Assembly: GCA_947457105.1 (NCBI GenBank) | Contig: CANGUP010000003.1 | Span: forward strand, 1-50,028 | DNA from: Flavobacteriaceae bacterium | GTDB lineage: Bacteria; Bacteroidota; Bacteroidia; Flavobacteriales; Flavobacteriaceae | Length of the DNA: 50,028 nucleotides | Direction: 5' to 3' | In this document: piece by piece, positions 1,093 through 40,885 of the stretch | Layout of the letters: every line of letters starts with the position of its first letter | Position numbering within the stretch: the first letter of the stretch is position 1 | Program-made: the position numbers and the translations under genes | Notes under the pieces: model-generated | The model's input: the letters and a program-made list of their open reading frames with translations, nothing else | Told to the model about the DNA's origin: nothing | The model's database searches: none

Positions 1093-4000
1093 ATGCGTAA
1101 AATAACAGCTTTTTTATTTTTAAATGTATTGGTTTCTGGAGCTACAATTTCGGCACAGCAAACTGCTATTTATACCAACCAATTTTCTGAATTTGATAGA
1201 GCTACAGATTTATACAATGACAAACAATATTTAGCAGCTCAGATTTTATTCGAAAAAGTCCAACAAAATAACAAAGAACAAGAAGTTCAAGCTGATTGCG
1301 CTTATTATATAGCTAATTGTGCCATTCGTTTAAATCAATCCGGTGCGGATAAATTGATGGAAGATTTTGTAGCGGATTATCCAACAAGCACTAAGCAAAA
1401 TCAAGCTTACATTGGTGTTGCGACCTTCTATTTTGAAAACGGAAACTATCCACAAGCATTAGAATATTTTAATAAAGTTGACGAAAGTGCCTTGACTTAT
1501 GATGAGTTAGAACGTTATAATTTTCAAAAAGCATATGCTTTTTTTACAGCAAAAAATAAAAAAGAGGCTACTGCTTATTTTAATAAAGTTGCTAATTCTA
1601 AAGAATATGGTTCACAAGCCAAATATTACTTAGGATTTATGGCTTATGAAGGTGATGACTACAAAGAAGCAACTAAGTATTTCGATCAAGTTTCTGGTGA
1701 AGAGAAATACAAAGAAAAGATGTCTTACTTTCAAGCTGATATGAATTTTAAACTTGGAAATTTCCAAAAAGCAATCGATTTGGGTAAGGCTGCCATGGCA
1801 AAATCATCGGCGGTTGAAAAATCAGAATTGAATAAAATTATTGGAGAAAGTTATTTCAATTTGAAACAATATGGTGAAGCATTGCCTTATTTGAAAGAAT
1901 ATAATGGCAAAAAAGGAAAGTGGAGTAACACTGATTTCTACCAATTAGGATATACATATTACCAACAAAAAGACTACGAAAACGCTATTTCGCAATTCAA
2001 TAAGATTATTGATGGGAAAGATTTCGTTGCTCAAAATGCGTACTATCATTTAGGTGAAAGCTACATGAAAACCGACAAGAAGCAACAAGCATTAAATGCA
2101 TTCAAGATTGCATCTGAAATGGATTTTGATAAGAAAATTCAAGAAGACGCCAATTTGAATTATGCTAAAATCAGTTATGAAATTGGGAATTCGTATCAAT
2201 CGGTTCCTGACGTTTTGTCTTCGTTTTTGGCAAAATATCCAAATTCACCTAGCAAAAATGAAATTGAAAACTTATTGATTAACTCGTATATCACTTCTAA
2301 AAATTACAAAGAAGCGTTGACTTTGTTGGAAAAAAATAAAAATCCAGAAAACAGATTGGCGTATCAAAAAGTAACTTTTTATAGAGGTTTAGAATTGTAC
2401 ACAGACGGAAATTATCAAGAAGCTCAAAAGATGTTTGCTAAATCGTTGAAAGAGCAAAAAGATGCAAAATTCTCCGCAAGAGCAACATTTTGGAAAGCGG
2501 AAACCGAATTTACTTTAGATAATTTTAATGAAGCATTGTTAAGTTTCAAGCAATTTGAAGGAATGGCTGAAGCTAAGAACACTCCAGAGTTCAAAAATGT
2601 AAATTACAACATTGCATATTGTTATTTCAAGCAAAAAGAATATGAGCAAGCAGGAAATTATTTTCAAGCACAAATTGATGCTGTAAAAGACGATAAAATC
2701 CGATTGAATGATTCTTATTTGAGACTTGGAGATAGCCGTTTTGTTTCTTCCAAATATTGGCCAGCAATGGATGCTTACAATAAAGCTATCGAATTAAAAA
2801 GTGTTGACGCTGATTATGCTGCATTTCAAAAAGCAATTTCATATGGTTTTGTAAGCAAAAATGATAAGAAAATTGAAGATTTCAATAAGTTTTTGGCAAC
2901 TTTCAAAACCTCTCAATATCGTGATGATGCCTTGTTTGAATTAGGAAATACTTATGTTGCAGATAATAAAACTGATTTAGGAATTAAAACTTACGATCAA
3001 TTATTGTCAGAGTTTAAAAACGGTTCTTATTCATCAAAAGCTGTTTTACGCCAAGGATTGATTTATTACAATGCGAATAAAGATAATGAAGCAATAACAA
3101 AATTCAAAAAAGTAGCTGCCGATTATCCAAGAACTCCAGAGGCATTAGAAGCAGTTTCTACAGCAAGATTGATTTATGTAGATAACGGAAAAGTTGATGA
3201 GTATGCGACTTGGGTAAGAACTTTAGATTTCGTAGAAGTTTCCGATGCTGAATTAGATAATGATACTTATGAAGCAGCAGAAAAACAATATTTGCAAAAT
3301 AATACCAAACAAGCCATCGCAACTTTAAGTAGTTATGTTGCCAAATTTCCAAAAGGAATTCATGCTTTGAAAGCCAATTTCTATTTAGCTCAATCGTATT
3401 ATGCTGATGGATTGGAAGCTAATTCAGTTCCAAATTATGAATATATAATTGCACAATCAAAAAGCGAATTTACAGAACAATCGTTAGCTCGTTTATGCGA
3501 AATTCATTTGAAAAAAGATGATTTCACCAAAGCAATTCCAGTTTTAAAACGATTAGAAACAGAAGCTGATTTTCCACAAAACGTAACTTTTGCTCAAGCT
3601 AATTTAATGAGAGCTTACTATTCACAAAAAGATTATCCAAATTCGGTAGTTTATGCTGATAAAGTTTTGGCAAATCCAAAAACAGATAATAAAGTAAAAA
3701 GTGATGCTCAAATTATTGTAGCTCGTTCGGCAATAAAAGCTAATGACGAAGCTAAAGCAAGAACAGCTTATGCTAATTTATTGAAAATTGCGAAAGGAGA
3801 ATTAGCAGCAGAAGCATTGTTTTATGATGCTTATTTCAAAAATAAAGATGGAAAATTTGCTGAATCTAATAAAGTGGTTCAAAAAATTGCTAAAGACTAC
3901 TCGGGTTACAAATATTTTGGAGCTAAAGGTTTAGTGGTAATGGCGAAAAATTATTACGGATTGAAAGATAGTTTCCAAGCAACAGCAATTTTAGAAAGTG

Positions 4001-4107
4001 TTATAGAAAATTTTGCGGAATTCACCGATGTTGTTGAAGAAGCTAAAACAGAATTGAATGCTATTAAATCAGAGGAAAGTAAAACGAATTCTTCTATTGA
4101 GAAATAG
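1093..4107 (+). CDS. Large secreted tetratricopeptide-repeat protein
   Basis: This 1004-residue protein has a signal peptide (MRKITAFLFLNVLVSGATISA, cleavage before QQ; no lipobox) and is then built almost entirely of TPR-type helix pairs. Recurrent patterns such as 'YxxAxxxFxxV', 'AxYxLGxxYxxxxxYxxAxxxF' and 'SPSKNEIENLLINSY' run from about residue 35 to 980. It is expected in the periplasm as a protein-protein scaffold. It is followed by a four-helix-bundle gene and an outer-membrane barrel on the same strand. A TPR protein directly before a barrel protein is a recurring flavobacterial arrangement, which suggests the two work together at the outer membrane. The precise role is unknown. The start is supported by the signal peptide and the promoter element just upstream. 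Confidence 0.85.
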   Translation: MRKITAFLFLNVLVSGATISAQQTAIYTNQFSEFDRATDLYNDKQYLAAQILFEKVQQNNKEQEVQADCAYYIANCAIRLNQSGADKLMEDFVADYPTSTKQNQAYIGVATFYFENGNYPQALEYFNKVDESALTYDELERYNFQKAYAFFTAKNKKEATAYFNKVANSKEYGSQAKYYLGFMAYEGDDYKEATKYFDQVSGEEKYKEKMSYFQADMNFKLGNFQKAIDLGKAAMAKSSAVEKSELNKIIGESYFNLKQYGEALPYLKEYNGKKGKWSNTDFYQLGYTYYQQKDYENAISQFNKIIDGKDFVAQNAYYHLGESYMKTDKKQQALNAFKIASEMDFDKKIQEDANLNYAKISYEIGNSYQSVPDVLSSFLAKYPNSPSKNEIENLLINSYITSKNYKEALTLLEKNKNPENRLAYQKVTFYRGLELYTDGNYQEAQKMFAKSLKEQKDAKFSARATFWKAETEFTLDNFNEALLSFKQFEGMAEAKNTPEFKNVNYNIAYCYFKQKEYEQAGNYFQAQIDAVKDDKIRLNDSYLRLGDSRFVSSKYWPAMDAYNKAIELKSVDADYAAFQKAISYGFVSKNDKKIEDFNKFLATFKTSQYRDDALFELGNTYVADNKTDLGIKTYDQLLSEFKNGSYSSKAVLRQGLIYYNANKDNEAITKFKKVAADYPRTPEALEAVSTARLIYVDNGKVDEYATWVRTLDFVEVSDAELDNDTYEAAEKQYLQNNTKQAIATLSSYVAKFPKGIHALKANFYLAQSYYADGLEANSVPNYEYIIAQSKSEFTEQSLARLCEIHLKKDDFTKAIPVLKRLETEADFPQNVTFAQANLMRAYYSQKDYPNSVVYADKVLANPKTDNKVKSDAQIIVARSAIKANDEAKARTAYANLLKIAKGELAAEALFYDAYFKNKDGKFAESNKVVQKIAKDYSGYKYFGAKGLVVMAKNYYGLKDSFQATAILESVIENFAEFTDVVEEAKTELNAIKSEESKTNSSIEK

Positions 4108-4111
4108 ATTG

Positions 4112-4593
4112 TTTAGATAATAGACAAATAGATAATAGATTAAAAACATGAATGATTTTAAGAGACATAATTTCAAAAAATTAAAAATTTGGCAAATGTC
4201 AATGGAATTGACTAAAACAATTTTTGAGTTGACATCAAATTTTCCAAGTGCAGAAAAGTATGGATTGATTAGTCAGATGAATAGATGTTCAGTTTCAATT
4301 GCTTCAAATATAGCCGAAGGTTCAAGTAGAACAAATAAATCGTTTAGTCATTTTTTAGATATTGCATTAGGTTCATCTTTTGAACTTCAAACACAATTAT
4401 TAATAGCTAATACTTGTAACTTTATTTCTGATGACGTTTCAAATAGCATAGAACTTAAATTAGAAGAATTTCAAAAAGCAACAATGTCATTTCAAAATAC
4501 ATTAAATTAAAACATATGAATTTATCAAAAAATAGATCTCAATTCACAATATTCGAAAGTCCATTATCTATTCGTCTTTTATCTATTTGTCTA
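4112..4593 (+). mobile_element. S23 cassette bounded by TAGA-type inverted repeats
   Basis: Left end TAGACAAATAGATAATAGA (4121-4139) is matched in reverse complement by TCTTTTATCTATTTGTCTA (4575-4593), 18 of 19 positions. Both sides continue with further TAGATAATAG-like units (4112-4140 and 4563-4593). The S23 gene lies between them. In RNA the two ends could pair into a stem with the gene in the loop, as in rRNA intervening sequences. The right end lies inside the N-terminal coding region of the next gene. Mobility is inferred from related copies at 39.2-39.7 kb and 43.3 kb; no target-site duplication was identified. Confidence 0.6.
4148..4510 (+). CDS. S23-type four-helix-bundle protein (rRNA intervening-sequence family)
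   Basis: A small 120-residue protein of the four-helix-bundle family first known from ORFs in 23S rRNA intervening sequences. Hallmarks are F-x-x-L-x-x-W near the start (residues 8-15), 'EKYGLISQM...CSVSIASNIAEGS' (36-59) and 'SFSHFLDIALGSSFELQTQL' (65-84). The related Avd proteins of diversity-generating retroelements share the fold and bind nucleic acid; no reverse transcriptase or variable repeat is present here. The function of stand-alone members is not established. The gene interrupts the TPR/barrel pair, with 40 nt upstream and 5 nt downstream, and is enclosed by inverted repeats. That fits a cassette inserted into a pre-existing operon. Confidence 0.9.
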   Translation: MNDFKRHNFKKLKIWQMSMELTKTIFELTSNFPSAEKYGLISQMNRCSVSIASNIAEGSSRTNKSFSHFLDIALGSSFELQTQLLIANTCNFISDDVSNSIELKLEEFQKATMSFQNTLN

Positions 4594-6321
4594 ATTTTAG
4601 GAACTCAAATCACTTTTGCTCAAAAGAAAGACGAAAACATCGGAACAGAAGTTGTTAACGTTGTAAAACCATACACACCAACTATTTCAGATGCTTTTAA
4701 AGTGAAAGAAACACCATCTTTAGAAGACGATGATAATTCTAAAAAAGAGAATATTCAGTACAATATTTTCTCTTTCCCAGTAGCTTCAACATTTACACCT
4801 TCTAAAGGAAAAGCAGCTGGAGTTGATAAAGGAAAGCAAGAAAAATTGTATAGTAATTACGCTACTTTAGCAGCAGGAAACTACGGAAATATCAATGCCG
4901 AATTGTTTGTAACACAAACATTAGAAAGTGGTGATTATGTGGGAGCAATGTTACGTCATCTTTCCTCTCAAGGCGGAATTAAAGATTTGGATTTAGATGA
5001 TAAATTTTCAAACTCTTCAATAGATTTAACTTACGGAAGTAAATCTAGAAATCTATCTTGGAATGCAGATTTGGGTTATCAACATCAAATGTATAATTGG
5101 TATGGCTTGAATCCATTATTTTATGAAAATTTTATTCCTGCCGATAAGGATGCTTTTATTAAAGGAATCGATTCTAAACAAACCTATCAAACCATTTCAC
5201 TTGGTGGAAGATTAGCGCTTGGAGAAAGTGTTTTGAAAGAGGCAACAATCAAATTCAATCGTTTTTCAGATGCTTTTTCTTCTGGAGAAAATCGTTTGGT
5301 TGCAAAACCTTCTCTTGCATTTGATGTCATGGATGAAAAGATAAAAGTAGATTTTGTTTTCGATTACATCAATGGTAAGTTTGACAAAGATTATAACGGA
5401 ATAACTGAGTTGAAATATGGTTACACCAACGTAGGAATGAAACCAAGTTTCCAAATCAATAAAGATGATTTATCTGTAAATTTAGGTGTTGGATTCTTTT
5501 ACAGCATGGCAACAGAATCTGGAAAAAATAAATTCTTTATCTATCCAAATATTACAGCATCTTACAAAGTGGTTGGCGATTTAATGGTAGCTTATGCTGG
5601 AGCAGAAGGTGCTTTAAAACAAAATTCTTATCAAGAGTTCGTACAAGAAAATTTCTTCGTTTCACCAACATTAGGAATTGGACCAACCGATCAAAAATTT
5701 GACATTTATGTTGGATTAAAAGGTAAATTAGCAAATACTATAGGATACAACATTCGTGGTTCGTTGATGAATGAAGGAGGTAAACCAATGTTCTTAAGAA
5801 ATGAATTCTCTCATTACAATACAAATAAAAATGGTTACGCCTACGGAAATTCATTTGATGTTGTTTACGACAATGTTAAAACAGTTAGTTTTTATGGTGA
5901 ATTAAAAGCCGACTTCTCTAAAAACGTATCTTTTGGTGTTAACGGAACTTTTAGCAGTTACACAACCGATATTCAAGAAGAAGCATGGAATTTACCAGCT
6001 TTACAATTAGGGGTCAATTTAGATTTCAATATAACTGATAAATGGTATGCAGGAACAAGTTTTTTCTTTGTTGGAGAACGAAAAGATCTTAAGTTTGTAC
6101 AAACAGCTTTAGCAATTTTTCCACCAACATATACTACAGAAATAACAACACTTGATAGCTATTTCGATTTGAATGCTCATATTGGATTCAAATACAATGA
6201 AAGATTAACCTTTTTCTTAAAAGGAAATAATTTAGCTAACCAAAGTTACCAAAGATGGATAAACTATCAAGTGCAAGGTGTGCAAGGATTATTAGGTGCT
6301 AATTATAAATTTGATTTTTAA
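4516..6321 (+). CDS. Outer-membrane beta-barrel protein (TonB-receptor-like, no clear plug)
   Basis: This 601-residue protein carries a signal peptide (hydrophobic LLSICLILGTQITFA, then QKKD) and 'NIGTEVVNVVKPYTPTISDAF'. The rest is alternating amphipathic strands typical of an outer-membrane barrel ('GRLALGESV', 'LGVGFFYSMA', 'AYAGAEGAL', 'LTFFLKGNNLANQSY'). It ends in an aromatic residue (NYKFDF), as BAM substrates do. The last quarter looks like the C-terminal strands of TonB-dependent receptors, but it is shorter than most and a canonical plug is not evident. The start is unusual: ATG 4516 follows the S23 stop by 5 nt, and codons from about residue 17 to 27 are read through the right end of the S23 element. 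The element therefore supplies part of the signal peptide. Confidence 0.8.
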   Translation: MNLSKNRSQFTIFESPLSIRLLSICLILGTQITFAQKKDENIGTEVVNVVKPYTPTISDAFKVKETPSLEDDDNSKKENIQYNIFSFPVASTFTPSKGKAAGVDKGKQEKLYSNYATLAAGNYGNINAELFVTQTLESGDYVGAMLRHLSSQGGIKDLDLDDKFSNSSIDLTYGSKSRNLSWNADLGYQHQMYNWYGLNPLFYENFIPADKDAFIKGIDSKQTYQTISLGGRLALGESVLKEATIKFNRFSDAFSSGENRLVAKPSLAFDVMDEKIKVDFVFDYINGKFDKDYNGITELKYGYTNVGMKPSFQINKDDLSVNLGVGFFYSMATESGKNKFFIYPNITASYKVVGDLMVAYAGAEGALKQNSYQEFVQENFFVSPTLGIGPTDQKFDIYVGLKGKLANTIGYNIRGSLMNEGGKPMFLRNEFSHYNTNKNGYAYGNSFDVVYDNVKTVSFYGELKADFSKNVSFGVNGTFSSYTTDIQEEAWNLPALQLGVNLDFNITDKWYAGTSFFFVGERKDLKFVQTALAIFPPTYTTEITTLDSYFDLNAHIGFKYNERLTFFLKGNNLANQSYQRWINYQVQGVQGLLGANYKFDF

Positions 6322-37398: not shown

Positions 37399-39189
37399 TT
37401 AAAAACAATAACTATTTTCGGCTACTAATTTTGCAGTGATTGTTTCTCTCAATCCTACAATATTAGGCATGTTGGTATATTTTGTAAAACGTCTTAATCC
37501 CATTAGCATCATACGTTGTTCATCGCCTTCTGCAAAAGAAATGATGCTTTCTTTTCCTCTAGAAGCTACGATATCAACGGCTTTGTATAAGTATAATTCA
37601 GCCATTGCAACTTGTTCTTTAACAGCCTCTTTACCTTTTGATTTTACTAATTTTTCAGTTCTTAAAATGGTACTTTCAGCCATATAAATTTCAATTAACA
37701 TATCAGCTGCAGCCATTAATAGTTGTTGGTGAGCATCTAAATCCATTCCGTATTTTTGAACAGCAGCACCTGCTACCATTAGGAACGCTTTTTTCAATTT
37801 GTCAACCATTTCTTTTTCTTCCGAAAATAATTCAGAATAATCTGGTGTGTCAAAGGATGGAATTCCCATTAATTCTTCTTGTACTTTCATTGCTGGTCCA
37901 AGTAAATCAACGTGACCTTTCATTGCTTTTTTGATTAACATTCCAACCGATAACATTCTGTTGATTTCGTTTGTTCCTTCATAGATACGAGCTATACGAG
38001 CATCTCTCCAAGCACTTTCCATTGGTGTGTCTTCTGAGAATCCCATTCCACCATAAATTTGAATTCCTTCGTCAGCACTGTTTTGAACATCTTCCGAAAC
38101 GGCTACTTTAAGGATTGAACATTCGATAGCAAATTCTTCAACTCCTTTTAATTCAGCTTCTTGATGACTTGCGCCTTCAGCTTCACGAAGTTTGATTCTG
38201 TTTTCAATGTCTTTTGCTGCACGATAAGTAGCGCTTTCACCTGCATAGGCAGATGTTGCCATTTCTGCTAATTTATATCTAATTGCTCCAAAAGAGGAAA
38301 TAGGAGTATTAAACTGAACTCTTTCGTTTGCATAATTAACTGCATTTGAAGTAACACGACGTTGTGCATCTAAACAAGCTGCTGCCAATTTGATACGTCC
38401 AACATTCAAGGCATTCATTGCGATTTTGAAACCTTCGCCACGAGCGGCTAACATATTTCCAACTGGAACTTTAGTATCAGCAAAGAAAACTTGACGAGTA
38501 GAAGAGGCACGAATTCCTAATTTATGCTCTTCTTCACCCATTGAAATTCCGTTGCTCGGATCATTTTCTACGATGAAACCTGTAATGTTTTTATCATCTT
38601 CAATTCGAGCGAAAACAATGAATACAGAACAGAAACCTGCATTAGAAATCCACATTTTTTGTCCTGTGATTTTATAATGCGTTCCATCTTCTGATAAAAC
38701 GGCTTTTGTTTTTCCAGAGTTGGCATCTGAACCTGCGCCTGGCTCTGTTAAGCAATAAGCTCCAAACCATTCACCAGTAGCTAATTTTGGTACGTATTTT
38801 TGTTTTTGTTCTTCCGTTCCGTATAAAGTGATTGGCATAGTTCCAATTCCGGTATGGGCACCAAAAGCAGTTGAAAACGAACCTGTTGCACCCGAAATAT
38901 AATCACAAACAAGGCAAGTATCTACAAATCCCATTCCCATACCTCCATAAGCTTCAGGTACAGCAACGCTCAAAAAGCCCATTTCACCAGCTTTACGCAT
39001 GGTTTCTTCCGTAAATGCATAGTCTTTATGCTCAAATCGGTCTTTGTTTGGCCAAATTTCTTTATCAACGAATTCTTTAACAGAATCACGCATCATGATT
39101 TGCTCTTCCGAGAAATCTTCTGGTGTAAAGACATTTTCACATTTGGTTTCTTTCACCAAAAATTGTCCACCTCTTGTTATATCTTCCAT
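37399..39189 (-). CDS. fadE: Acyl-CoA dehydrogenase (FadE type)
   Basis: First oxidation step of fatty-acid beta-oxidation, using FAD and passing electrons to ETF. 596 residues, nearly the length of Bacillus FadE (about 594). 'FSEEQIMMRDSVKEFVDKEI' begins the dehydrogenase fold. 'AYCLTEPGAGSDANSGKTKA' and 'GQKMWISNAGF' bind FAD and substrate. The catalytic glutamate lies in 'ARIYEGTNEINRM'. A C-terminal helical extension of about 150 residues ('LKKAFLMVAGAAVQKYGMDL...') is typical of this subgroup. It is last in the marR-fadN-fadA-fadE cluster; the gap to fadA is filled by a decayed S23 element. Confidence 0.9.
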   Translation of the reverse strand: MEDITRGGQFLVKETKCENVFTPEDFSEEQIMMRDSVKEFVDKEIWPNKDRFEHKDYAFTEETMRKAGEMGFLSVAVPEAYGGMGMGFVDTCLVCDYISGATGSFSTAFGAHTGIGTMPITLYGTEEQKQKYVPKLATGEWFGAYCLTEPGAGSDANSGKTKAVLSEDGTHYKITGQKMWISNAGFCSVFIVFARIEDDKNITGFIVENDPSNGISMGEEEHKLGIRASSTRQVFFADTKVPVGNMLAARGEGFKIAMNALNVGRIKLAAACLDAQRRVTSNAVNYANERVQFNTPISSFGAIRYKLAEMATSAYAGESATYRAAKDIENRIKLREAEGASHQEAELKGVEEFAIECSILKVAVSEDVQNSADEGIQIYGGMGFSEDTPMESAWRDARIARIYEGTNEINRMLSVGMLIKKAMKGHVDLLGPAMKVQEELMGIPSFDTPDYSELFSEEKEMVDKLKKAFLMVAGAAVQKYGMDLDAHQQLLMAAADMLIEIYMAESTILRTEKLVKSKGKEAVKEQVAMAELYLYKAVDIVASRGKESIISFAEGDEQRMMLMGLRRFTKYTNMPNIVGLRETITAKLVAENSYCF

Positions 39190-39231: not shown

Positions 39232-39692
39232 TAGAAAATAGAAAATAGAGAATAGAAAATAGACGGGATTATTGAGAAGATACTTTTCTTTAATCCATTT
39301 TGAACGACATTGTCATTCTTTGAAATTCTTCTATTTTCTTTTCTAATTTTTTGAAGGTTTCTTCATCAATATATTTTCTATGTTTTGCAACAATTAATTA
39401 TCTTATCAATTCAAAAGAAGAGCATAAAGCAATATCAACAAAATGACTAAACGATTTGTCCTTTAGAAATGAACCTTAAGTAATATTACTTGGAATAGAA
39501 ACAGAACAACAGCTCATTTGAGAACTTAAATCATATCTTTCATATTTTGGAAACTCTAATAAAATATCAGAAATATCATTTGCAATTTCAATTCCTAATT
39601 GCCATACTTTCAAATTTTTATAATTATGTCTCATACCTTTTAGATTAATTAAGCGTAAAGTACAAAGTCTATTTTCTTTATTCTATTTTCTA
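39232..39692 (-). mobile_element. Decayed S23 element with TAGA-type inverted ends
   Basis: One end is at 39232-39264 (units TAGAAAATAG, AGAATAGAAAATAGAC). The opposite, inverted end is at 39667-39692 (GTCTATTTTCTTTATTCTAT and TTTCTA). GTCTATTTTCT is an exact 11-nt inverted match of the inner ends. A dead S23 gene lies between. The whole 514-nt gap between fadE and fadA is this element. Confidence 0.65.
39290..39634 (-). pseudogene. S23 four-helix-bundle pseudogene
   Basis: The minus strand from ATG 39634 encodes 114 codons collinear with the intact S23 gene at 4148. It has 'MRHNYKNLKVWQLGIEIAND', 'YERYDLSSQMSCCSVSIPSN', 'KSFSHFVDIALCSSFEL' and 'EEFQRMTMSF'. Two in-frame TAA codons (positions 53 and 79) interrupt it. 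The first replaces the Glu of the family's SNIAEG motif; there are no frameshifts. The reading frame is otherwise fully preserved, so inactivation appears recent. Confidence 0.85.
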
Positions 39693-39703
39693 TACTCTTC
39701 AAA

Positions 39704-40885
39704 TTACAACAATTCATAAATACCCGCAGAACCTTGTCCAGTTCCAACACACATACTTACGATTCCGTATTTAGATTTTCTTAATCGCATTTCTTCAAAT
39801 AATTGTACTGATAATTTGGCTCCTGTACAACCTAATGGATGGCCTAAAGAAATTGCACCACCGTTTACGTTAATGATATCAGGATTTAAATTTAATTCAC
39901 GAGTTACTGCTAATGCTTGTGATGCAAATGCTTCATTTAATTCAATTAAATCAATATCATTTAATGTTAAACCTGCTTGTTTCAATACTTTAGGGATGGC
40001 TTTTACTGGACCAATTCCCATGATTCTTGGTTCAACTCCTGCAGATGCAAAATTTACTAATCTCGCAATAGGAGTTACACCTAATTCTTTTACCATTTCT
40101 TCGCTCATGATAAGTACAAATGCCGCACCATCACTCATTTGTGAAGAGTTTCCTGCAGTTACACTTCCATCAGCTGCAAATACAGGTTTTAGTTTTCCTA
40201 AAGCAGCAATATTTGTGTCGGCTCTTGGTCCTTCATCTTTATTTACAACGTAAGATTTGGTTTCTTTTTTACCATTTTCATTAATAAATGTTTGCTCTAC
40301 AGTAATTGGAACAATTTGTTTGTCAAATTTACCTTCGGACTGAGCTTTTAATGCTTTTTGATGTGAATTGTAAGCAAACTCATCTTGATCTTCACGAGAC
40401 ACGTTGAATTGTTTTGCAACAGCTTCAGCGGTTAAACCCATTCCCCAATAATAATCTTCATGACCTTCTTTTGCTATAGCGTAATCTGGTGTTGGTTTAT
40501 ATCCACCCATTGGAATAAAACTCATGCTTTCAGCGCCACCGGCAATGATACAATCTGCCATTCCACTTTGGATTTTTGCTGTTGCCATTCCGATAGTTTC
40601 TAATCCTGAAGCGCAGTATCTATTTACTGTTACTCCAGGAACGTCTGTAACTTTTAGTCCCATTAAGGAAATTAAACGACCTACATTTAAACCTTGCTCA
40701 GCTTCTGGCATTGCGTTTCCAACCATTACATCGTCGATACGCGTTTTGTCAAAATCAGGCAATTGAGCCATCATAAATTCGATGGTCTCAGCAGCTAATT
40801 CATCAGGTCTTTTGAATCTAAATACTCCTTTAGGAGCTTTTCCTACCGCAGTACGGTATCCTTTTACTATATATGCTGTTTTCAT
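39704..40885 (-). CDS. fadA: Acetyl-CoA acyltransferase (thiolase)
   Basis: Last step of beta-oxidation: thiolytic cleavage of 3-ketoacyl-CoA. 393 residues. Catalytic Cys91 lies in 'VNRYCASGLETIGMA'. The conserved 'ELNEAFASQALA', 'GGAISLGHPLGCTGA' (catalytic His) and 'SMCVGTGQGSAG' (second Cys) are present. It is 3 nt from the stop of fadN, so the two are translated together as subunits or partners of the beta-oxidation complex. Confidence 0.93.
   Translation of the reverse strand: MKTAYIVKGYRTAVGKAPKGVFRFKRPDELAAETIEFMMAQLPDFDKTRIDDVMVGNAMPEAEQGLNVGRLISLMGLKVTDVPGVTVNRYCASGLETIGMATAKIQSGMADCIIAGGAESMSFIPMGGYKPTPDYAIAKEGHEDYYWGMGLTAEAVAKQFNVSREDQDEFAYNSHQKALKAQSEGKFDKQIVPITVEQTFINENGKKETKSYVVNKDEGPRADTNIAALGKLKPVFAADGSVTAGNSSQMSDGAAFVLIMSEEMVKELGVTPIARLVNFASAGVEPRIMGIGPVKAIPKVLKQAGLTLNDIDLIELNEAFASQALAVTRELNLNPDIINVNGGAISLGHPLGCTGAKLSVQLFEEMRLRKSKYGIVSMCVGTGQGSAGIYELL

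Follow-up and report, generated by a model that had tools for sequence, protein, structure and literature searches.

Our analysis of a 50,028-nucleotide stretch of Flavobacteriaceae DNA (called the window throughout) showed that a gene for an S23 four-helix-bundle protein lies there inside a pair of matched, inverted repeat arms, and that most S23 genes examined in two bacterial phyla are enclosed in the same way, an arrangement that likely marks a little-noticed mobile insert. We propose that the S23 gene and both arms form one cassette, which would lie in the sense direction between operon genes and whose parts have likely traveled together between at least two junctions of operons. The arms would fold the mRNA into a closing stem, a likely target of RNase III, whose cleavage would leave both neighboring messages functional, and the S23 protein most likely binds the repeat stem and would thus protect or spread the cassette. 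Such an element would be a relative in kind of the intervening sequences (IVS) of 23S rRNA, living in mRNA; it may be selfish or near neutral, since it sits between reading frames, and may sometimes become locked in place once an arm joins a host gene. For this reading as a whole, in which a sense cassette made of S23 and two arms has moved as a unit and its mRNA stem is likely cut by RNase III, we consider the balance to be about even.

The original prediction described 19-nt inverted ends enclosing an intact S23 gene between a TPR gene and an outer-membrane barrel gene (Table 1), and both points were borne out. On realignment, all but one of the 19 positions of 4121-4139 (95%) pair with 4575-4593, with an overlapping register (4114-4139 with 4560-4585) pairing at 88% over 26 nt, and the enclosed open reading frame (ORF) scores above the cut-offs of both PF05635 (119.9 bits; cut-off, 33.8) and TIGR02436 (105.1 bits; cut-off, 24), which makes it a member of the S23 family. 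The placement needs one correction: the layout stands, but the right arm lies inside the barrel reading frame (4516-6321) and not in an intergenic gap. A solved relative of the protein was identified by sequence (XCC0516, 2gsc; E = 2.7e-19), and dN/dS values of 0.01 to 0.28 in the 25 pairs listed indicate that the S23 protein is maintained by selection. The downstream gene, for which we adopt the name "barrel" from the original prediction as an assumption, is without a Pfam or NCBIfam match at E 0.001. Between the arms there is only S23, a transposase being absent, and no Rfam family fits the cassette: a search up to E 1 gave two matches, and each falls far short of its gathering score. In the 50-kb window, a scan for inverted repeats with loops of up to 600 nt gave its two highest scores to pairs that enclose S23 genes, one pair (4114-4136/4563-4585) being located at the intact cassette and the other (39238-39264/39667-39693) at the decayed one; the arm motif, with up to 3 mismatches, occurs three times in the window, always in this cassette, where shuffles lead one to expect 0.06 occurrences. 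The left arm starts a few bases past the TPR stop codon, and an RNase III gene is present in the same genome.

Table 1. Coordinates of the two S23 cassettes of the window and of the genes that flank them
Feature	Position	Strand	Remarks
TPR-repeat protein gene (upstream host)	1093..4107	+	TAG stop at 4105-4107 adjoins the left arm
Left arm	4114..4139	+	Best 19 nt, 4121-4139; units of 7-8 nt
S23 (23S_rRNA_IVP) four-helix-bundle gene	4148..4510	+	Intact, 120 aa
Right arm	4560..4593	-	4575-4593 (1 mismatch to left arm) plus a second, partial unit copy at 4560-4578 (3 mismatches)
Outer-membrane barrel-like gene (downstream host)	4516..6321	+	Right arm encodes its N-terminal hydrophobic leader
Acyl-CoA dehydrogenase-like gene (downstream host, second cassette)	37399..39189	-	Name presumed from sequence recognition
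Second-cassette arm, 3' relative to S23	39238..39264	-	Inverted-repeat scan score 18, period 7
Second S23 gene, decayed	39311..39619	-	91.8 bits; 2 in-frame TAA
Second-cassette arm, 5' relative to S23	39667..39693	-	Inverted-repeat scan
Thiolase-like gene (upstream host, second cassette)	39704..40885	-	Name presumed from sequence recognition

To compare S23 loci, the 150 nt upstream of each gene were locally aligned with the reverse complement of the 220 nt downstream, at a threshold of 12.5. Of 71 Bacteroidota S23 loci, 51 passed (13/13 in the window's own genome, 24/30 in the genus, and 14/28 in the phylum), as did 4 of 276 displaced placements in the same loci and none of 30 control loci of RsfS, a housekeeping gene of similar size; the genus, phylum, and RsfS loci, like the GxxExxY loci below, are the best-scoring matches of each search and no random draw, and many are kin, so that the counts are nonindependent. 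The 20 loci below the threshold include half of the phylum sample, and in one own-genome locus (L013) the passing alignment falls outside the arms visible by eye. Under a looser first scoring, L013 and three other loci of the own genome (L002, L004, and L008) were indistinguishable from controls; the stricter scoring and other flank lengths were adopted after this first result, and the displaced and RsfS controls were run under the stricter scheme. The S23 family itself is widespread, occurring in 119 of 121 Flavobacterium genomes and in 232 of 296 genomes across the phylum.

The own genome holds 13 PF05635 loci, and their arm sequences differ among them, with units such as AATAGAA, ATATTAG, GTTAGTC, GTTTAAA, and AATTACG. 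A further 394 kb of this genome contains 14 inverted repeats over a set score, 7 of them with loops longer than 300 nt; among these 7 (4 inspected), 3 surround a cargo gene, which is an additional S23 in two and a GxxExxY in one, and the long-loop repeat L222 has no ORF of at least 50 aa wholly inside. Whether the ends are tied to S23 genes genome-wide, a question raised by the original prediction, depends on how an end is defined. The exact sequence is not: the window's arm motif (up to 3 mismatches) is found at 12 places, compared to 5 for a reversed control, and only 3 of the 12 are at the S23 gene of the window cassette, for which reason we rejected it as a genome-wide marker. The layout does mark these genes, enclosing 51 of the 71.

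The arms consist of tandem, degenerate 7-8-nt units and in this resemble heptanucleotide (STRR-like) repeat arrays. Autocorrelation of the 51 passing left arms peaks at lags of 7, 8, 14, and 16 nt, with a best lag of 7 or 8 in 42 of them, and upstream coding controls are without such a peak. Across the 71 loci, the predicted duplex energy is -47.7 kcal/mol for flanks within a cassette versus -34.1 kcal/mol across cassettes, and in 16 cassettes no downstream flank is a better partner than the cassette's own, which ranks among the best three in 33; units are thus common to related cassettes and different between lineages. The left arms carry more G than C in 43 of the 51 cassettes and less in 4, a skew indicating that arms have polarity relative to the gene. 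In two loci at the TPR-barrel junction (L024 and L067), the right arms have grown into multicopy arrays in frame with the barrel gene, which has very long leaders there.

The placement of the genes is equally regular in Bacteroidota. S23 is codirectional with both neighbors in 65 of 71 loci, compared to 204 of 345 background ORFs of the own genome (Fisher p = 2.3e-8, with loci that are nonindependent), and the distance from the upstream stop codon to the start of the left arm has a median of 4 nt and falls within -15 to +30 in 42 of 47 cases. Cassettes of the own genome lie, for example, between nuoM- and nuoN-like genes and ahead of an ftsW-like gene; these names, like those of the pheS-, rpoN-, asnS-, and PhzF-like genes below and the thiolase and acyl-CoA dehydrogenase of Table 1, are presumptive and come from sequence recognition. 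In alignments to the empty sites L016, L017, L018, and L043, native sequence has been replaced and a target duplication is not visible. Arms differ among the 13 own copies and are shared within the window's subfamily; ends common to all copies, as in an insertion sequence (IS), are absent. An IS element was accordingly rejected as a reading, there being no transposase and the arms differing among own copies.

The window's S23 subfamily occupies two junctions. With the window S23 as query, 398 Flavobacterium genomes gave 31 listed hits at 66% identity or more, and of the 30 loci read, 14 are at the TPR-barrel junction and 16 at a thiolase-dehydrogenase junction, with no other site among them; in the latter group the dehydrogenase is present in 16/16 and the thiolase in 15/16, a contig end taking its place in the remaining one. 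The window's own decayed S23 occupies precisely this second junction. The two junctions have like arm units (TAGACGAATAGATAATAGAC with its complement), and 25 of the 29 loci with a testable flank reach 12.5. Three of the 29, all at the thiolase site (L238, L242, and L249), depart from this pattern: their near upstream repeat aligns better with the downstream arm as a direct repeat than as an inverted one, and 128 to 198 nt separate S23 from the thiolase match. In the S23 tree, the thiolase-site genes and the window's decayed copy form one clade (96*), with the TPR-site genes outside. From this separation of the two sites we infer, on sequence grounds, that there was likely one jump of the whole unit, gene and arms, between the two junctions, followed by inheritance, recombination, and loss. 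At the TPR-barrel site, S23 distances track host-gene distances (Mantel r of 0.58 and 0.49), as expected from inheritance, and movement at this site may be ordinary recombination.

The TPR-barrel junction was found both with and without the cassette among Flavobacterium relatives, as the original prediction had anticipated, and not in the state that would have spoken against it, with S23 in all relatives and no repeats. We compiled 134 rows for this junction (24 named records, 30 from a search, and 80 fetched), comprising 11 full S23 cassettes (9 after duplicates), 2 remnants, and 121 rows without S23, in 5 of which the upstream part is not readable; many rows without S23 have another gene between the TPR and barrel genes. 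The TPR stop codon is TAG in 12 and TAA in 1 of the 13 S23-bearing rows; of the 121 rows that lack S23, 92 have TAA and 24 have TAG, with 5 not determined. The scattered presence of S23 requires at least 9 changes on the barrel tree, which omits 1 row with a short or late barrel match and 7 duplicates and counts L015, L045, L154, L158, and L167 as empty. A near copy (L014, 98% barrel identity) is occupied, and the next relative with a readable junction (L016, 91%) is empty, its TPR end and post-leader region matching the window up to the cassette borders. In seven of the nine empty relatives displayed, the barrel begins with a similar leader (MKINFQYK and variants), with L022 and L031 differing more, and this likeness suggests that the empty state is likely ancestral.

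In all 8 distinct occupied rows displayed, the hydrophobic leader of the barrel protein (SSIRLLSICL-like) is encoded by the right arm, and in L052 and L060 most of S23 is deleted and the arm-encoded leader kept. Judged by these reading frames, the right arm is captured as part of the barrel host gene. Elsewhere at Flavobacterium TPR junctions (L151, L162, L165, L173, L176, L181, L184, L185, and L187), hairpin-like repeats of 7-nt units without S23 can be seen by eye between the TPR gene and a PhzF-like gene.

The layout extends to a second cargo family and to a second phylum. GxxExxY (PF13366) genes have it in 21 of 30 loci reaching 12.5, compared to 2 of 120 displaced placements; a 129-aa GxxExxY gene on contig C2 of the own genome (L209:3068-3635) has CACAAAG-like inverted arms and lies between rpoN-like and asnS-like genes. 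A plasmid search yielded 38 records with S23, mostly cyanobacterial, of which 10 were read: 9 of these 10 cyanobacterial loci reach 12.5 with 20 nt of the ORF ends included and 6 without, and in several the arms are G/C-richer. S23 is sense with both neighbors in 6 of the 10, faces both neighbors in L317, L318, and L319, and faces one in L320; L317 and L318 have it antisense between two codirectional genes (ribonucleotide reductase subunits and secretion genes, respectively). Three of the cyanobacterial plasmids (L316, L322, and L324) carry an armed S23 inside a CRISPR operon (cas6-S23-cas4, cas10-S23-cmr3), and in L316 the arm units are expanded as an array. The arms also occur bare: on contig C88 of the own genome (L330:1502-1580), a hairpin of the window cassette's arm unit, without S23, directly follows the stop codon of a pheS-like gene, and its RNA folds far better than shuffles (z = -5.85), though the inverted-repeat scan did not call it at its threshold.

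The original prediction regarded the window element as IVS-like, in an mRNA context. The recurrence of S23 with complementary ends as a unit in protein operons agrees with this, but three tests of pairing gave it no support. Among arm mismatches, the G.U type was not in excess of the A.C type (49 versus 64 for S23 loci and 20 versus 26 for the subfamily; elsewhere, 4 versus 5 in cyanobacteria and 22 versus 17 for GxxExxY), giving no sign that pairing in sense RNA is selected. For the 521-nt RNA of the window cassette, the folding energy is ordinary relative to shuffles (z = -0.80; 20 of 100 do as well), and its arms close the stem in both the minimum-energy and the centroid folds. Within one junction, the arms of a cassette match each other no better than they match the arms of sister cassettes: arm permutations gave values as low in 7092 and 4047 of 20000 for the two junctions and in 903 of 20000 for the whole subfamily. 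The energy permutation and mismatch tests used 28 and 27 of the 30 subfamily loci, respectively, near-copies or rows without a flank being omitted. The mismatch and sister-cassette tests could be underpowered, and in an AT-rich RNA of 521 nt most of the folding energy comes from the interior.

The negative pairing tests and the antisense cyanobacterial copies together make a role of the arms as DNA the chief rival. Arrays would then extrude or recombine as single-stranded hairpins, S23 or GxxExxY would be copied into junctions at replication or repair, and the RNA stem would be a by-product. We regard this as possible though on the unlikely side. It would account for the lack of a sense-RNA mismatch bias, the ordinary folding energy of the window cassette, the 3 of 10 cyanobacterial loci in which S23 faces both neighbors, the near repeats that are direct and not inverted in 3 of 29 subfamily loci, the expansion of 7-8-nt units as arrays (L316, L024, and L067), and an alternative cargo, GxxExxY, that is a nuclease-like family (Pfam PDDEXK_3); the antisense copies and direct-orientation repeats, in particular, raise it and lower the RNA-stem cassette. 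Yet 65 of 71 Bacteroidota S23 genes are sense with both neighbors and left arms have more G than C in 43 cassettes and less in 4, whereas a strand-blind DNA process would need later selection for expression to give a sense bias. An ordinary operon gene with a regulatory hairpin, in which S23 was inserted once per junction and inherited with the operon while the stem tunes the neighbors, strikes us as improbable. Selection on S23, the S23 distances that follow hosts at the TPR-barrel site, and the restriction to two sites among the 30 loci read (of 31 hits listed in 398 genomes with at least 66% identity) all fit it, but the scattered presence (a minimum of 9 changes on the barrel tree if the 5 unreadable-upstream rows count as empty), the occupied L014 (98%) beside the empty L016 (91%), whose leader resembles those of other empty relatives, and the same layout around S23 in unrelated operons of two phyla do not.

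Chance, or plain low-complexity tandem repeats in AT-rich DNA, is scarcely credible: units are indeed A/T-rich and degenerate, and one window placement scored 28 in the looser first test, but displaced placements (4/276) and RsfS (0/30) rarely or never pass, the window's two strongest inverted repeats both hold S23, and arms are G/C-richer in several cyanobacterial loci. The reading we prefer, a sense cassette moved as a unit with a stem in its mRNA, draws support from the arm survey, the lineage-matched arms and their 7-8-nt period, the sense orientation, the fit to stop codons, and the occupied and empty sites, and further from the one subfamily with its units at two junctions, the 96* clade, the L330 hairpin, the RNase III gene, and selection on S23. 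It is weakened by the negative pairing tests, the direct repeats (3/29), the antisense cyanobacterial copies, and the 20 of 71 loci below threshold, as well as by the absence of a visible target-site duplication and of a mobility enzyme in the cassette and by S23 distances that follow those of the hosts.

Three results go beyond the original prediction, namely, the lineage-specific 7-8-nt arm repeats, the second cargo family, and the absorption of the right arm by the barrel gene. If S23 genes are the cargo of inserts between operon genes, many of them are not host genes. If the insert reading is true, no functional explanation is required for the presence of S23 in cas and other operons, and the S23 ORF of rRNA IVS, a long-standing oddity, would be one special case among such inserts, open to testing in bacteria that are easy to grow. 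Capture of an arm as a host-protein leader, followed in two relatives by loss of most of S23, would be a route by which inserts become fixed parts of host genes. Tentatively, and with less than even confidence, we suggest a new class of transposase-free mobile elements: operon cassettes with lineage-specific, complementary 7-8-nt repeat arms and S23 or GxxExxY cargo, which would spread between stop and start codons in Bacteroidota and Cyanobacteria, perhaps also in Xanthomonas, with the 23S IVS as an rRNA-borne branch and S23 as the arm-binding protein.

Our search of the open-access literature (subscription papers and preprints being outside its scope) found no recognizable account of S23 or GxxExxY genes in cassettes with repeat arms; the available portions of two reports (PMC8934634 and PMC5524665) place GxxExxY or four-helix-bundle genes in other contexts only. 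Miniature inverted-repeat elements (MITEs) and IS elements share with S23 cassettes the inverted ends, the several copies per genome, and the bare derivatives, and differ in that the cassettes have no transposase, ends that are not common across lineages, and a mostly sense orientation in Bacteroidota. The accessory protein bAvd (PF22296) of diversity-generating retroelements (DGRs) has a distant profile similarity to S23 (23.5 bits versus a cut-off of 40). A DGR was rejected as a reading, on this score and because the genome's only two RVT_1 matches are on contig C42 and the window is on C3. On contig C42, a reverse transcriptase domain (PF00078) is part of a single open frame of 829 aa (C42:11973-12911), a possible helper in trans.

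As for the arms, heptamer arrays are known from Xanthomonas (GGGAATC) and Nostoc (GGGGA(T/C)T), with 70 oppositely oriented array pairs in Xcc according to the sections available (PMC4692102), and TAACTGA arrays are described in another report (PMC4679880). In Nostoc, P6b of the tRNA-Leu intron is, in the text available, a hairpin of degenerate heptanucleotide repeats in a transcribed RNA (PMC3488679). These are heptanucleotide arrays as here, but in what is accessible of these sources no array is linked to S23 or GxxExxY genes, and the accessible parts of PMC4692102 and PMC4679880 contain no mention of "four helix" or S23. As for the cargo, a 2013 survey reports, in its available text, 23S_rRNA_IVP genes near cas4 and cas6 and between cmr2 and cmr3 and takes this as a CRISPR-associated function (PMC3936711). 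These genes lie between operon genes, as do those studied here, and flanking repeats go unmentioned in that text. An insertion cassette would explain S23 in cas loci without a CRISPR role, and the arms around S23 in CRISPR operons may explain why it was listed among cas-associated genes.

The closest comparison is with the 23S rRNA IVS, which RNase III excises with no religation afterwards. The Coxiella IVS, as given in the part of the source available, has a 28-bp stem with one mismatch and a bulge, an S23 ORF, and cutting by RNase III (PMC4990558), and IVP ORFs occur in rRNA insertions of CPR bacteria according to the accessible text of another study (PMC11270868). Insertion in a 23S rRNA gene does not apply here, whereas complementary ends around S23 and a patchy presence were both found. 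The cassettes differ from 23S IVS in their host, which is a protein operon (TPR-barrel), in arms made of lineage-specific 7-8-nt repeats, and in having a second cargo family, and they resemble 23S IVS in a size of ∼0.4 kb, an S23 ORF, complementary ends that close a stem, and a patchy distribution.
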